From Candidatus Saccharimonadota bacterium (GTDB taxonomy: Bacteria; Patescibacteriota; Saccharimonadia; Saccharimonadales; Saccharimonadaceae): a DNA stretch of 62,627 nucleotides. The translations under genes were made by a program, and so were the position numbers. The notes under the pieces were generated by a model. That model was not told the DNA's origin. It saw only the letters and a program-made list of their open reading frames with translations, and did no database searches. This document shows, one piece after another, positions 48,174 through 62,407 of the stretch (positions within the stretch are counted from its first letter, which is position 1; each line of letters opens with the position of its first letter). Location of the stretch: positions 1 to 62,627 of the forward strand of contig JAFWOH010000027.1 of the NCBI GenBank assembly GCA_017509895.1. Direction: 5' to 3'.

Positions 48174-48746
48174 TTGCAACAAGTTTCAGATAAAGAGACC
48201 AAAATCATCCTCGACCTCGCTGAAAAAGCCTTAAAGGTCGAGGGCGATTTTGTTGAGCTCGGCTGTTATAAAGGAGACACTTCTATTCTGCTCCAAAAAT
48301 TACTTCATCAAAACGGCTTCGACCGTCGCCTCTTTCTTTATGACTCTTTTGAGGGCTTGCCGGAAAAGACTAGAGAAGATTCTTCCGCCGCCGGTGATAA
48401 TTTTAAAAAAGGGGAATTGCTCGTCACCAAAAAGGAGGTCGTCCGCCGCTTTAAAAAGGCCGGCCTCCCAGTACCAAAGATTAAAAAGGCCTTCTTTGAA
48501 GATTTAGCGCCAAACGATTTGCCGGAAAGAATCGCCTTCGCCTTCCTTGATGGGGATCTCTATGGCTCTATCAAAACTTCCCTAGAGCTCGTTCTTCCGC
48601 GCCTTACTAAAAATGCAGTCCTTATTGTTCACGATTATAACAACCCTTCGCTCCCCGGCGTCGCCAGGGCTGTGGACCAGGCCGGCCTAAAGGGCACGCT
48701 CCGCGAAACTTTATTTATCAAAATTGTAAATAAAACACTAGCATAA
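48174..48746 (+). CDS. TylF-family class I O-methyltransferase
   Basis: 190 aa, starting at TTG 48174 with GGAG nine bases upstream; no in-frame ATG is suitable. SAM-binding motif I is EGDFVELGCYKGDTSILL (about residues 23-40). YDSFEGLPE (about 57-65) is the hallmark of macrocin O-methyltransferase (TylF)-type enzymes. FLDGDLYGSIKTSLELVLPR and LIVHDYNNPSLPG carry the Asp residues that bind metal in this family. The family methylates sugar hydroxyls, so a surface glycan is a reasonable target. The last codons (about 48724-48739) also contain a 16-bp motif repeated at 62364. Confidence 0.85.
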   Translation: MQQVSDKETKIILDLAEKALKVEGDFVELGCYKGDTSILLQKLLHQNGFDRRLFLYDSFEGLPEKTREDSSAAGDNFKKGELLVTKKEVVRRFKKAGLPVPKIKKAFFEDLAPNDLPERIAFAFLDGDLYGSIKTSLELVLPRLTKNAVLIVHDYNNPSLPGVARAVDQAGLKGTLRETLFIKIVNKTLA

Positions 48747-48761
48747 AACATCTGCCTATGC

Positions 48762-48767
48762 TACAAT
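48762..48767 (+). promoter_or_regulatory. -10 box of the FISUMP adhesin leader
   Basis: TACAAT. The transcript would begin near 48773, the first base of the nested stem. TTGTAAATAAAACACT (48724-48739) lies 22 bases upstream, exactly as the same 16-mer lies before TAGAAT at 62402-62407. Confidence 0.6.
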
Positions 48768-48772
48768 AAGGG

Positions 48773-48953
48773 TGCGACAAACTATTATTAGAAAACGGAA
48801 CCTTAATTTTATATCTTGGCTTTCACAAGTACTGTCATATTTTGAATATTAAAATGGCACCAGTAGTTGCTGTTATATTCAAAATATGGCAGCCAAGTTG
48901 GTTCCGTACCAGTTTGTCGCAAGCTACCGGTGCCATTTTTATCAAAATGCACC
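48773..48953 (+). ncRNA. Nested-stem leader RNA with an 18-nt loop-downstream complementarity
   Basis: Four stems lie in order: 48773-48783 with 48911-48921 (11 bp); ACGGAACC (48795-48802) with 48900-48907; CTTGGCT (48815-48821) with 48891-48897; and 48834-48849 with 48875-48890 (16 pairs, one G-U). The apical loop 48851-48868 is complementary to 48922-48939 (16 Watson-Crick, one G-U, one mismatch), so a pseudoknot or an alternative fold is possible. AAAATGCACC at 48944-48953 competes for the same 48929-48939 segment. It ends 20 bases before the adhesin AGGAGG, so it is probably a cis-regulatory switch. Confidence 0.85.
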
Positions 48954-48987
48954 GCCAACAAAATTTAAACATAGGAGGTGCGAAGCC

Positions 48988-51900
48988 ATGAAACATATAA
49001 ACTTTAACTACCTGATGGATACCAGAGCAATATCAAGAAGCTCTGGTACCCATCAGGGAGCCCAAATGAGAAATAACCTCATTCTCTTAAGGTTTGGGCT
49101 CCTTACTTCCCATGACCGGTTTGGTTTTTCCGGCTATTTTGGACGCTCTGAACATTCCATTCATTCCCATCATTCCCGCATTTCTCGCTCCATTCCGCTT
49201 ATGTTCGCTCTGCTTGCCTTAGCTATTCTGTCTGGTGGTTTTCTTTTCTCTCATTCCGCTTATGGAGCAAGCTATCTAAATGTTTCTTCCTCCGCACCAG
49301 AAGGCTTAGTAAAGTTTTCTAAAGTACAACCTTCTAGTACTGGTTCTATGAGTACCGCACAAGACACCCTTACCATTAATACAAACTGTACTGTAGGCTA
49401 TTCCGTTTATGTTTCTGCTACTAGTACTGGAGACACTAATCTCACCAATAGTGCTGCAGCTAATAACAATACTATCTCTGCTTCAAATACTACTGTAGGC
49501 AGTACTGCTACCGTACTCTCTCCAGATACATGGGGCATTAATGCAAATAGCAGTGATGTATCAGACGGCAAATACTATGGCCTTCCTACATACGCTTCTG
49601 CTATGAATACTGCTCTTACTACTAAATCTAATGTAGAAATCAGTACTACTGTTCCTATCTACTATGGTGCTAAAGTCACTACCGCGATTGCTCCAGGTAC
49701 TTATTCTGGAGATGTGCTATATACTGTACTACCAGACAGTTCTTGTCTAGATTATATCGTAGTCTTTGATAAAAATGCTTCTGATGCTACCGGTACTATG
49801 GCAAACCAAAGCATACCAAGAGGAGATGCTACCGCTCTTTCCGCTAATACTTATACTCGTTCCGGTTATACTTTCCTCGGCTGGAGCAACAGTGCAGACG
49901 GCAAAACCGGAACAGCCGTAAATGGTGTAGGTACTATGGCAGATGTAGATTATACCGACAAAGAGAAGGTTACAGACCTCATTGCCGGTAGCCAGACTAA
50001 AACTCTTTATGCTATCTGGGCAGTAGTCTCTGGCGATATGCAGACCTGGACTGGCTGTCCAAGCCTCGCTACAAACACTGTTATTTACCTAAAAGACACG
50101 AGAGACAATAAAGTCTATGCCGTTAAGAAACTCCCAGACGGCAAATGCTGGATGATGAGCAACCTCTCCGTCTCCAATGTCGTGATGACTTCAAGCGATA
50201 CCAATCTCGCCTCTGGCGCCACCTTTGACCTCACCTCCGGTATCACCTATTCTGGCGACTCCGGCTGGTGTACGGCGAACAGCGCCGCTTGTGACGACGC
50301 CAAGGCCGTCTACGCCAGGAATGACTCTAACGGCTACCTCTACAACTGGTATACCGCTACCGCCGGCAACGGCACTTATAGTACCGCCGCTGACGTAACC
50401 ATAAATTACGACATCTGTCCGAAAGGTTGGCATCTCCCGGTAGGTGGCGATAACAATACCTCGAACCAGTTTGCCCTGCTCGATATTGCCCTTGGTGGTA
50501 CTGGCACAAACAGGATGTTTGCAAACACTTATAGCGCTATGACTAATATCTTCCCGCTTGTCGGCTATATCTACGGTTCATTGGACTACGTCGGTAGGGG
50601 CGGGCAGTACTGGTCGTCTACTGCTCAATCTAATGACAGCGCGTACTACCTAAACTTCTACCCGAGCGATCAGTACATGGGCCTCCGGAGAAGCAGCTAC
50701 AATTTCAACGGCAACTCCGTCCGCTGCATAGCTCAGAATAATTATACGGTGAGCTATAATGCCAATGGTGGTACCGGGGCGGCCAGTAAGGCGAGTGACA
50801 CCATTTACGAAACCGGCACCTTCACAACGGCAGGGCAGGGGACATTAGCAAAAGACGGCTACAACTTCCTCGGCTGGAGTCTAGACCAAAACGCCACCTC
50901 GGCCACCTACGCCGCTAATTCGTCCGTAGATGTCCAAACCCTCATCTCCGCCGCCGGCTCCCCCGCCTCCGGCAGTACCATCACCCTTTATGCCGTTTGG
51001 GAAGAGCAGGCGGATGGCGATATGCAGAGCTTTAACTGCGCAAGTCTTGCTTCAGGTGCCACCGCTAAACTCCGTGATACTCGCGATGGACAAATCTATT
51101 CTGTCTATCGCATCCCAACTAATGCCACTTATTACGGTACTAGCACCGTAGCCAATATTGCTGGTAAATGTATCATGACTAAAGACCTTAACCTTGGCGC
51201 AGTAGACTCTGTTTCAGGAGCAAGTTCTTCAATTACCGCACAAGGCACAATGAATCTTTCGCCACAAGATTCAGCTTTCTCTACCCCGACTGGTTCTGGC
51301 GAGTCTATTACCGTCCCAACAACGACTACTGCCGTCACTCATGGCACACCGGGCACTGGAGACAACTACTATACTAACCGTCAATACCGTATAGACGGTA
51401 CCGGAAATTATGCTGGCAGAGGTTACTACACTTGGGGCGCCGCTATGCTTGCTTGTCCAAAGAATTGGAGATTACCAACTGCTGATGAGTATGCCATTGG
51501 TAGTGGTTGGGAAACATATACTGGTGGTCTTGCTGCTATCGTTAAAGGTGCTAATTACTCCACTACTATTAGTAACATAACCTCCTCCCCTTGGTCCTTC
51601 GTGCTTGGTGGGTACTATAACAATGGTTTCGACAACGCCGGCTCCTACGGGTACTATTGGTCCACTACTCAGAACGTTTCGACTTACTCATATAACTTGT
51701 ACATGGGTTCGTCGGGCGGTCTCGTACGGGGCAGCGGCAGCAAGAGAAGCGGCTACGCAGTTCGCTGCATAGCCGACCCGACCATGCAAAACTTTGACTC
51801 TAGTAGCCTACCGAACGTCGGGGACTCGACCACCCTAGTAGATACCCGGGATGGTACAGAATACGTCGTGAAGCGTCTCCCAGACCAGAAGGTTTGGATG

Positions 51901-52491
51901 GTAGAAAACCTCAAACTCTCTAACTATAACCTCACTTCCTCCGACTCTAACGTCTCCTCCTCCGGCTTTAACATGCTAACTTCCAACGTAGCTCAATCTA
52001 CCGGTACCTGGTGTACAGACTGGAACTCTACTTGCTATAACAAAATCTCGGTCTACCCACGAACTGATAGTAACGGTAATCTTTACAACTGGTACACCGC
52101 TACCGCCGGCACTAGCGGTAGCAGCTACGACATCTGCCCGAAAGGTTGGCGCTTACCTACCGGCGGCTCGAGCGGCGAGTTCGCAGCTCTAGATAAAGCC
52201 TGGGGCGGTACCGGAGCATACCGCAATAACGCTAATACTTACAGCACCTTTACCGGAGCCTATACTTCTGGCAATAACGGCGGCTTTACGCCTCTGCCCG
52301 GCTATATTAACGGGTCGCTGCGCAGTGTTGGCTCGAGCGGGTACTGGTGGTCGTCTACTGCTAATGGTTCAGGCGTCGCGCACTACCTGAACTTGTACTC
52401 GAGCAATTCGAACGTGGACCCCGATAGCTACTTCTACAGCAACTGCGCCGGGTACCACGGGTACTCAGTGCGGTGCGTGGCTAAGTCTTGA
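48988..52491 (+). CDS. Three-domain FISUMP surface adhesin
   Basis: 1167 aa from ATG 48988: AGGAGG lies nine bases upstream, whereas the in-frame ATG at 48886 falls inside the leader stem. A long N-terminal region (about 70 aa) precedes the membrane/signal segment SIPLMFALLALAILSGGFLF. Then come a beta-sandwich (about 95-255), an InlB-type repeat (YTRSGYTFLGWSNSADGKTG), FISUMP domain 1 (about 345-585), a second InlB-type repeat (DGYNFLGWSLDQNATS), FISUMP domain 2 (about 670-930) and domain 3 (about 935-1167). Each FISUMP domain has C-P-K-x-W-x-L-P, a Y/W-W-S-S/T-T motif and a closing VRC. Domains like these decorate Saccharibacteria surfaces. The stretches before each VRC are the most different between copies and look like DGR variable regions. 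No wall anchor follows domain 3. Confidence 0.85.
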   Translation: MKHINFNYLMDTRAISRSSGTHQGAQMRNNLILLRFGLLTSHDRFGFSGYFGRSEHSIHSHHSRISRSIPLMFALLALAILSGGFLFSHSAYGASYLNVSSSAPEGLVKFSKVQPSSTGSMSTAQDTLTINTNCTVGYSVYVSATSTGDTNLTNSAAANNNTISASNTTVGSTATVLSPDTWGINANSSDVSDGKYYGLPTYASAMNTALTTKSNVEISTTVPIYYGAKVTTAIAPGTYSGDVLYTVLPDSSCLDYIVVFDKNASDATGTMANQSIPRGDATALSANTYTRSGYTFLGWSNSADGKTGTAVNGVGTMADVDYTDKEKVTDLIAGSQTKTLYAIWAVVSGDMQTWTGCPSLATNTVIYLKDTRDNKVYAVKKLPDGKCWMMSNLSVSNVVMTSSDTNLASGATFDLTSGITYSGDSGWCTANSAACDDAKAVYARNDSNGYLYNWYTATAGNGTYSTAADVTINYDICPKGWHLPVGGDNNTSNQFALLDIALGGTGTNRMFANTYSAMTNIFPLVGYIYGSLDYVGRGGQYWSSTAQSNDSAYYLNFYPSDQYMGLRRSSYNFNGNSVRCIAQNNYTVSYNANGGTGAASKASDTIYETGTFTTAGQGTLAKDGYNFLGWSLDQNATSATYAANSSVDVQTLISAAGSPASGSTITLYAVWEEQADGDMQSFNCASLASGATAKLRDTRDGQIYSVYRIPTNATYYGTSTVANIAGKCIMTKDLNLGAVDSVSGASSSITAQGTMNLSPQDSAFSTPTGSGESITVPTTTTAVTHGTPGTGDNYYTNRQYRIDGTGNYAGRGYYTWGAAMLACPKNWRLPTADEYAIGSGWETYTGGLAAIVKGANYSTTISNITSSPWSFVLGGYYNNGFDNAGSYGYYWSTTQNVSTYSYNLYMGSSGGLVRGSGSKRSGYAVRCIADPTMQNFDSSSLPNVGDSTTLVDTRDGTEYVVKRLPDQKVWMVENLKLSNYNLTSSDSNVSSSGFNMLTSNVAQSTGTWCTDWNSTCYNKISVYPRTDSNGNLYNWYTATAGTSGSSYDICPKGWRLPTGGSSGEFAALDKAWGGTGAYRNNANTYSTFTGAYTSGNNGGFTPLPGYINGSLRSVGSSGYWWSSTANGSGVAHYLNLYSSNSNVDPDSYFYSNCAGYHGYSVRCVAKS
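49011..49102 (+). promoter_or_regulatory. Two hairpins within the first codons of the adhesin gene
   Basis: CCTGATGGATACCAGAGC (49011-49028) pairs with 49040-49057 over 18 positions with one mismatch. GGAGCCCAAA (49057-49066) pairs with TTTGGGCTCC (49093-49102). They encode the residues before the signal segment and may modulate translation or transcription elongation. Confidence 0.75.
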
Positions 52492-62363: not shown

Positions 62364-62407
62364 TTGTAAATAAAACACTTGTGTTAATTTTTGTGGGGTG
62401 GTAGAAT
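62364..62407 (+). promoter_or_regulatory. Promoter of the 62441 gene with 16-bp upstream motif
   Basis: TTGTGT (62379-62384), 17 bases, TAGAAT (62402-62407). TTGTAAATAAAACACT (62364-62379) lies 22 bases before the -10, identical in sequence and distance to 48724-48739 before the adhesin. Confidence 0.65.

Follow-up and report, generated by a model that had tools for sequence, protein, structure and literature searches.

The described systems closest to the element reported here are leaders in which alternative or long-range pairing governs expression, and hairpins that mark exchangeable genes. In the preQ1 and SAM-II translational riboswitches, the 5' leader folds into a pseudoknot, the 3' strand of which immediately precedes the start region, and a U-rich loop strand runs beside an A-U helix. 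Transcription attenuators and other terminator-antiterminator leaders use one hub segment that takes part in mutually exclusive pairings and is followed by a U run. In the autoregulatory pseudoknot leaders of ribosomal proteins (alpha operon, S15), pairing between a loop and a downstream segment controls initiation, and integron attC sites are variable-stem hairpins with one-sided bulges that occur in many copies next to exchangeable genes. Each of these features has an actual or possible counterpart in a leader found upstream of an adhesin gene in a 62,627-nt contig of Candidatus Saccharimonadota bacterium (JAFWOH010000027.1, assembly GCA_017509895.1; this whole stretch is referred to as the window). 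A reading of the letters alone, hereafter the original prediction, had proposed that this leader may be a new cis-regulatory RNA for surface protein expression that resembles no known riboswitch family. With Rfam 15, only three tRNAs in the window reached the gathering score and the leader was without a match, and a permissive Rfam scan of the leader and six relatives returned, besides neighbouring tRNAs, only sub-threshold chance matches of the miRNA/snoRNA type, in agreement with that proposal. The literature that we searched reports no structured RNA in Saccharibacteria or candidate phyla, which is weak evidence because most subscription papers and all of bioRxiv were outside the scope of the search. 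As for a riboswitch, no ligand can be inferred from the surface-protein genes and there is no recognisable ligand pocket (binding is untested). On the comparative evidence given below, we are nearly certain that the leader belongs to a real and conserved family of cis-acting RNAs, previously undescribed and found mostly in one Saccharibacteria genus.

Results

As the original prediction had it, four stems are nested in the window leader on the plus strand, and all were confirmed base for base. Stem 1 (48773-48783/48911-48921, 11 bp) and stem 2 (48795-48802/48900-48907, 8 bp) form the lower stem S1, whose 5' strand (48773-48802, with an 11-nt 5' bulge) pairs with 48900-48921, while stem 3 (48815-48821/48891-48897, 7 bp) and stem 4 (48834-48849/48875-48890, 16 bp) form the upper stem S3, whose 5' strand (48815-48849) pairs with 48875-48897. 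The kink between lower and upper stem is a U-rich 5' bulge, TTAATTTTATAT (48803-48814), which has U runs in most of the family, and the 3' strands of both stems occupy 48875-48921, as supported by sequence pairing and covariation. We refer to the apical loop as L1 (48851-48868, AAAATGGCACCAGTAGTT), to the 3' flank as F (48922-48939, AGCTACCGGTGCCATTTT) and to the third segment as T (48944-48956, AAAATGCACCGCC; the portion originally noted, AAAATGCACC, is 48944-48953). L1 and F are complementary over 18 positions, with 16 Watson-Crick pairs, 1 G-U pair and 1 A.C mismatch, exactly as had been stated; F, which runs into a U run, is a hub able to pair with L1 or with T, and T is an imperfect copy of L1. 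The ribosome-binding site AGGAGG (48973-48978) and the start codon ATG at 48988 follow (48973-48990 together), and the gene (48988-52491, plus strand) encodes a FISUMP (PF09603) surface protein of 1167 aa (Pfam E 4.7e-32), in which a Pfam scan found three Fib_succ_major (FISUMP) stretches behind a hydrophobic, signal-like N-terminus. Two strong hairpins (49008-49060 and 49057-49102) lie within the first 40 codons of this adhesin, whose first 120 nt have z = -9.3; strong early-gene hairpins were also seen at L181, L164, L173, L220, L136 and L155, and leader genes as a group differ from others in this respect (P 0.004). The region from 48760 to 48980 folded with z = -5.8, none of 200 shuffles being equally stable (RNAfold), and the leader scored 92.6 bits with the covariance model described below, the window being one of its 13 seed sequences. 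We regard this score, together with the conservation of pairing over 89 copies, as far stronger evidence than the fold z-score.

An extended -10 element, TGCTACAAT (48759-48767, plus strand), precedes the stem, and a -10-like sequence, mostly TGnTAYAAT, lies at the same constant distance before the stem in 93/93 copies examined. Because of this fixed spacing, transcription should start at the base of the stem, at about 48773-48775 in the window, as originally proposed; there are no RNA data. Further upstream, a module of the promoter region, TTGTAAATAAAACACT (48724-48739, plus strand), has exactly 7 occurrences in the genome, with sites in the window at 48724-48739 and 62364-62379 and on contigs C24, C28, C30, C32 and C36. 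At 48724-48739 it falls inside the last codons of a TylF-like methyltransferase gene, the upstream neighbour, and on C24, C28, C30 and C32 it likewise stands shortly before adhesin paralogues. Several copies lie just upstream of an adhesin-promoter -10, and the reversed reading was never found in the genome; the module is possibly a shared upstream promoter element or a regulator site.

A DNA-DNA search of 60 relatives with the window leader returned only its own copy, and a protein pattern taken from the adhesin N-terminus had no match in the named genomes. A permissive DNA search of 174 same-genus genomes gave short islands over L1 and F, and these led to the family, since the sequence around them was found to hold whole leaders with the same plan and other stem sequences. 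Many further short matches of this search were set aside as chance coding-sequence matches (e.g. L103, L105, L108 and L110). When 13 leaders were aligned with MAFFT on sequence alone, the 16-bp outer stem was paired in 194/208 cells, and other registers reached at most 89. Covariance model R1, built from these 13 leaders with only the 16-bp outer stem as structure, located the element in 76/174 same-genus genomes (best match per genome at E 0.01; a few weak genomes may be false), and covariance searches also detected it elsewhere in the order, in a few genomes that belong to other genera and families. In a 380-genome sample of the phylum searched at E 1e-4, no genome outside the family had the element. 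The named examples are Saccharibacteria MAGs, some of them from sheep, goat and cattle intestine. The leader was also observed on two contigs labelled Oscillospiraceae and Bacilli (L220, CANQHN010000002, with a surface-protein-type gene behind the leader, and L240, CANRDN010000043), which probably come from rabbit-gut Saccharibacteria and were misbinned.

Copy number differs greatly between genomes. In a 0.8-Mb genome that was searched alone (G080) there were 39 strong copies, and 13 weaker matches overlapped these on the other strand, whereas the genome of the window has a single copy, and the element was not found at its adhesin paralogues with readable upstream DNA. A second match in the window's own genome and weak matches of ~28-45 bits were identified as the antisense strand of the same elements, an echo that arises because L1 and F are complementary, and were excluded from the structural counts. 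In the same genome, FISUMP adhesin paralogues carry (CT)n tracts in the signal-peptide region (G000:C30:5050, C28:16774, C39:250, C27:18143, C25:29109, C24:6238 and C32:31-510; L077-L084, L033-L036 and L040) and, in those that were read, the frame behind the tract is shifted relative to the ATG, resembling phase-variable contingency genes; the window adhesin has no tract and is in frame.

The genes behind the leaders were then compared. G080 has 34 copies clear of contig ends; for 28 of these, FISUMP was matched on the copy's own strand no more than 2.5 kb downstream, and most FISUMP matches without an element sit near contig ends. FISUMP was present in 6/10 scanned downstream proteins, and two of these passed the curated cut-off. 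The N-terminus has a strongly hydrophobic stretch in 71/73 downstream ORFs, which is a weak test, since 29/40 window ORFs have one likewise. A cis-regulatory leader RNA is expected to lie 5' of a coherent gene set on the same strand and to have a covarying secondary structure on the transcript strand, and the first of these holds. The original prediction had named a covariance search of Saccharibacteria upstream of FISUMP genes as its check, and that search recovered the family and confirmed the FISUMP context. Non-FISUMP genes (a TM2-domain protein and others) lie downstream of the copies from other genera and of weakly scoring same-genus copies, both of which lack T (L264, L265 and L269-L271).

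The second expectation was examined in alignment A3, which holds 89 distinct copies; other counts use 93 copies. In the outer stem, 97.7% of cells were paired and 15/16 pairs had changes on both sides. The covariation score of the whole structure was 0.485, compared with 0.162 when shuffled and at most 0.105 in slid registers. G.U combinations outnumbered A.C combinations by 106 to 11 in the stem and by 143 to 39 in the helix between L1 and F, an excess indicating that the folding strand is the transcript (plus) strand, which bears out the earlier argument from G-U pairs. A covarying secondary structure on the transcript strand is therefore present, and the compensatory changes that would have supported the original prediction were found, the stem tested being the outer one and the loop-flank pairing showing double changes of its own. 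Overall, covariation, strand and gene context support a new plus-strand cis-regulatory RNA upstream of surface-protein/FISUMP genes in Saccharibacteria.

The family's hairpins comprise 40 pairs in the median, beginning with ~25 bp, followed by a 14-nt 5' bulge with nothing opposite and then by an upper stem of ~15 bp (median 15 bp). The bulge is usually U-rich, and 20 nt are unpaired on the 5' side compared with 3.6 nt on the 3' side. A run of at least 4 U occurs in the 5' arm of 79/93 copies (28.5 expected), and the largest bulge contains UUU in 74/93. Only L1, F and the U-rich bulge are conserved across the family. Runaway mutation of the stem was rejected as an explanation, because certain stems agree to 90-97% between genomes, and the divergence is that between old paralogues.

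In G080, paralogues with 92% identity between F and the start codon are unrelated in promoter and stem (45-50% identity in the stem), and stems from different genomes are 74-93% alike before different gene classes. Related stems or promoters before different gene classes were observed for L208/L192, L233/L190, L254/L172, L235/L208 and L243/L239. This mosaic identity indicates that promoter, stem and downstream gene did not descend entirely together, the boundary lying at F; it could reflect recombination over the shared downstream block, so that leaders could be expression sites for exchangeable surface genes, which we offer as a lead and not as a demonstration. The same pattern might be expected if the element acted at the DNA level as a single-stranded or cruciform hairpin, for example as an integron attC-like recombination site that swaps surface genes behind promoters, and pairs such as L233/L190 (0.90 in the stem, 0.47 downstream) and L254/L172 (0.79 and 0.53), like the G080 paralogues, are compatible with such a site. 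However, the G.U excess of the transcript strand and the promoter fixed in 93/93 copies point to RNA, positions at the base of the stem lack the conservation demanded of attC R boxes, and homologous recombination over the shared block explains the mosaic equally well, so that we hold a DNA-level site to be very improbable. An integron attC site as such was rejected because pairs at the stem base are free to vary (columns 8/201, for example, have A-U 52, U-A 26, G-C 7, C-G 3).

The helix between L1 and F is absent from the structure of the covariance model. Over its 17 positions, 93.5% of cells were paired in the 89 copies, with 52 double-change cells compared with 12.5 in shuffles, and no slid register came near. 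In a single genome (G076), L1 occurs as ACGAGG, ACTAGG and ATTAGG, each with a matching F in its own copy (CCTCGC, CCTAGC and CCTAGT). This copy-by-copy match favours pairing in cis; pairing in trans between copies as the reason for the complementarity is disfavoured, as L1 and F co-vary within copies of one genome. Since F starts 0-3 nt past the stem base and L1 lies at the far end of ~40 bp, the hairpin must fold back at the bulge for the two to meet, although we have no 3D model. The U run of the 5' arm (79/93), together with the A-U pairs found at one end of L1:F, could supply the strands of a U.A-U triplex, which is conceivable with the A-U part of L1:F; its geometry is untested.

A segment able to compete for F was part of the original prediction, and this holds for the window and for most members, but not for all. 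T was present in 59/93 copies by a strict test and 34/93 failed; T-like segments lie downstream of F in most same-genus relatives, and T is missing in distant genera (L269-L271). The window T, one G short of the usual GGCACC, fails the strict test and still pairs with F. In the 59 strict-test copies, T can pair with F over the same core as L1 does, and variability was 0.13 bit for F, 0.45 for L1 and 0.55 for T, while F rose to 0.44 bit where T is missing. Such low variability of F is what one would expect if, as a hub, it has to match two partners. Since F is nearly invariant, few two-sided changes are seen in the F:T pairing. Taken together, the comparative evidence shows the predicted fold to be a kinked hairpin presenting L1, with an L1:F cis pseudoknot that is universal and an F:T alternative in most members of the main genus.

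T may also face the start of its own gene. In L185, T GCACCGCA is complementary to the start UGCGGUGU, in L187 T GCAUCAC is complementary to GUGAUGC before the start, in L173 T ACCUCC is complementary to GGAGGU, and in the window T GCACC (48949-48953) can pair with GGUGC (GGTGC, 48977-48981), which overlaps AGGAGG. Over 30 start classes, T paired with its own start at -9.2 kcal/mol and with swapped starts at -8.1 kcal/mol, only 24/20000 permutations reaching the own value, and T:start pairing was stronger than L1:start pairing (P 0.0006). Against background starts, the median rank P was 0.14, with 26% below 0.05, which is a shift rather than a rule. The related sequences are not independent, and gene classes differ, some having clear complementarity and others only weak complementarity; we regard pairing of T with the RBS or start region of its own gene as moderately supported. 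Some G080 copies (L190, L191 and L196) have extra inserts with inverted repeats between T and the start codon.

In the window, duplex energies were -22.8 kcal/mol for L1:F, -11.7 kcal/mol for F:T and -13.3 kcal/mol for T with the start region, so that each of the three states that had been drawn for this leader can pair, L1:F being by far the strongest. The strength of L1:F over its competitor, and a very stable structure that begins at the expected first transcribed base, would also suit a leader without any switching, in which the mRNA has its 5' end locked in the pseudoknot and is thereby protected from decay or insulated from the region upstream. Such a static leader leaves unexplained the higher conservation of F relative to L1 and T, the retention of T by most of the genus and the gene-specific T:start complementarity, and we consider it unlikely.

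Most copies have a terminator-like hairpin at F, which a translational switch does not need, and the main rival explanation is a transcription attenuator. In this view, F and its U run would act as an intrinsic terminator, the partner of F being either L1 itself or the lower stem's GCACC end, and the choice between L1:F and this local hairpin (GCACC-CUUGC-GGUGCC-AUUUUU) would decide read-through into the surface-protein gene. The U run has exactly 5 residues in 82/93 copies and 4-7 in nearly all the rest, and it persists even where the facing L1 bases are other than A. In 88/93 copies it is immediately preceded by a local hairpin at least as stable as -4 kcal/mol, and distant members without T carry the canonical-looking GACACC-UUGC-GGUGUC-GUUUUUAUU. 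However, the window lacks this local hairpin (-0.5 kcal/mol), in L098 and L139 it is weak, and a simple terminator scan of the window region finds no terminator. An intrinsic terminator demands a G+C-rich hairpin with a U run directly behind it in all members, and the window copy does not fulfil this. Variants of the stem end are usually unmatched in F, and T lies after the U run, where it would have no role. We see attenuation as possible but doubtful. Since members from other genera that lack T keep both L1:F and the U run, the ancestral role may nevertheless have been at the level of transcription, with T added later in this genus.

Discussion

Our preferred reading is that the leader is a translational switch that works through L1:F versus F:T, to which we assign a probability of roughly 0.55; its signal and direction are inferred, and there are no expression or probing data. 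The leader would be transcribed from the stem base, its long kinked hairpin presenting L1. L1:F would be the default state, leaving T free to cover the start and keeping translation low, because L1:F is the stronger in energy (in the window) and L1 and F are both made before T. A factor that binds L1, or otherwise blocks L1:F, would allow F to capture T and so open the start; a protein, a small RNA, a metabolite or temperature are candidates for this trigger. Control by CsrA was rejected, PF02599 being found in 0/8 genomes while control genomes were positive. Mutually exclusive pairing of F with L1 or T is possible in 59/93 copies, and T:start complementarity is weak in many classes. Given the copies that fail the strict test for T and its absence in distant genera, switching by T cannot account for everything that the family does.

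In genomes like G080, near-identical L1 and F motifs head most FISUMP genes, so that a single trans factor could govern the surface repertoire as a whole. Extended to its limit, this would mean one RNA switch used ~40x in a 0.8-Mb genome, with a single trans factor reading L1 for nearly all FISUMP genes and leaders serving also as gene-swapping expression sites, a combined picture that we entertain only tentatively and think rather unlikely. If it were true, surface genes would be swapped through the leaders, for example to change host attachment. Independently of this, a large family of structured RNAs found here only in the order of the window genome is added to the Patescibacteria, for which the literature searched names no such family, and it provides a first candidate for how gut Saccharibacteria control a large paralogous set of surface proteins. 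With one leader common to nearly all FISUMP genes of a genome, coordinated control becomes directly testable, and what is at issue is how obligate episymbionts choose and hold their hosts.

Compared with the systems described at the outset, the leader departs from each in a different respect. Unlike an integron attC site, it has its own promoter at the stem base, a G.U bias of the transcript strand and a conserved loop and flank, and it lacks conserved R boxes. Its genes are exported surface proteins with up to dozens of copies per genome, in contrast to the alpha operon and S15, and autoregulation by the product is for this reason not an obvious option. The hub and U run recall attenuators, but the competing segment T comes after the U run and the window copy has no terminator-like hairpin. 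With the preQ1 and SAM-II riboswitches it shares a pseudoknot close to the start and, possibly, a U-rich strand beside an A-U helix; the stem of the leader, however, is ~40 bp long and free in sequence, and the start would be occluded by a separate segment, T.
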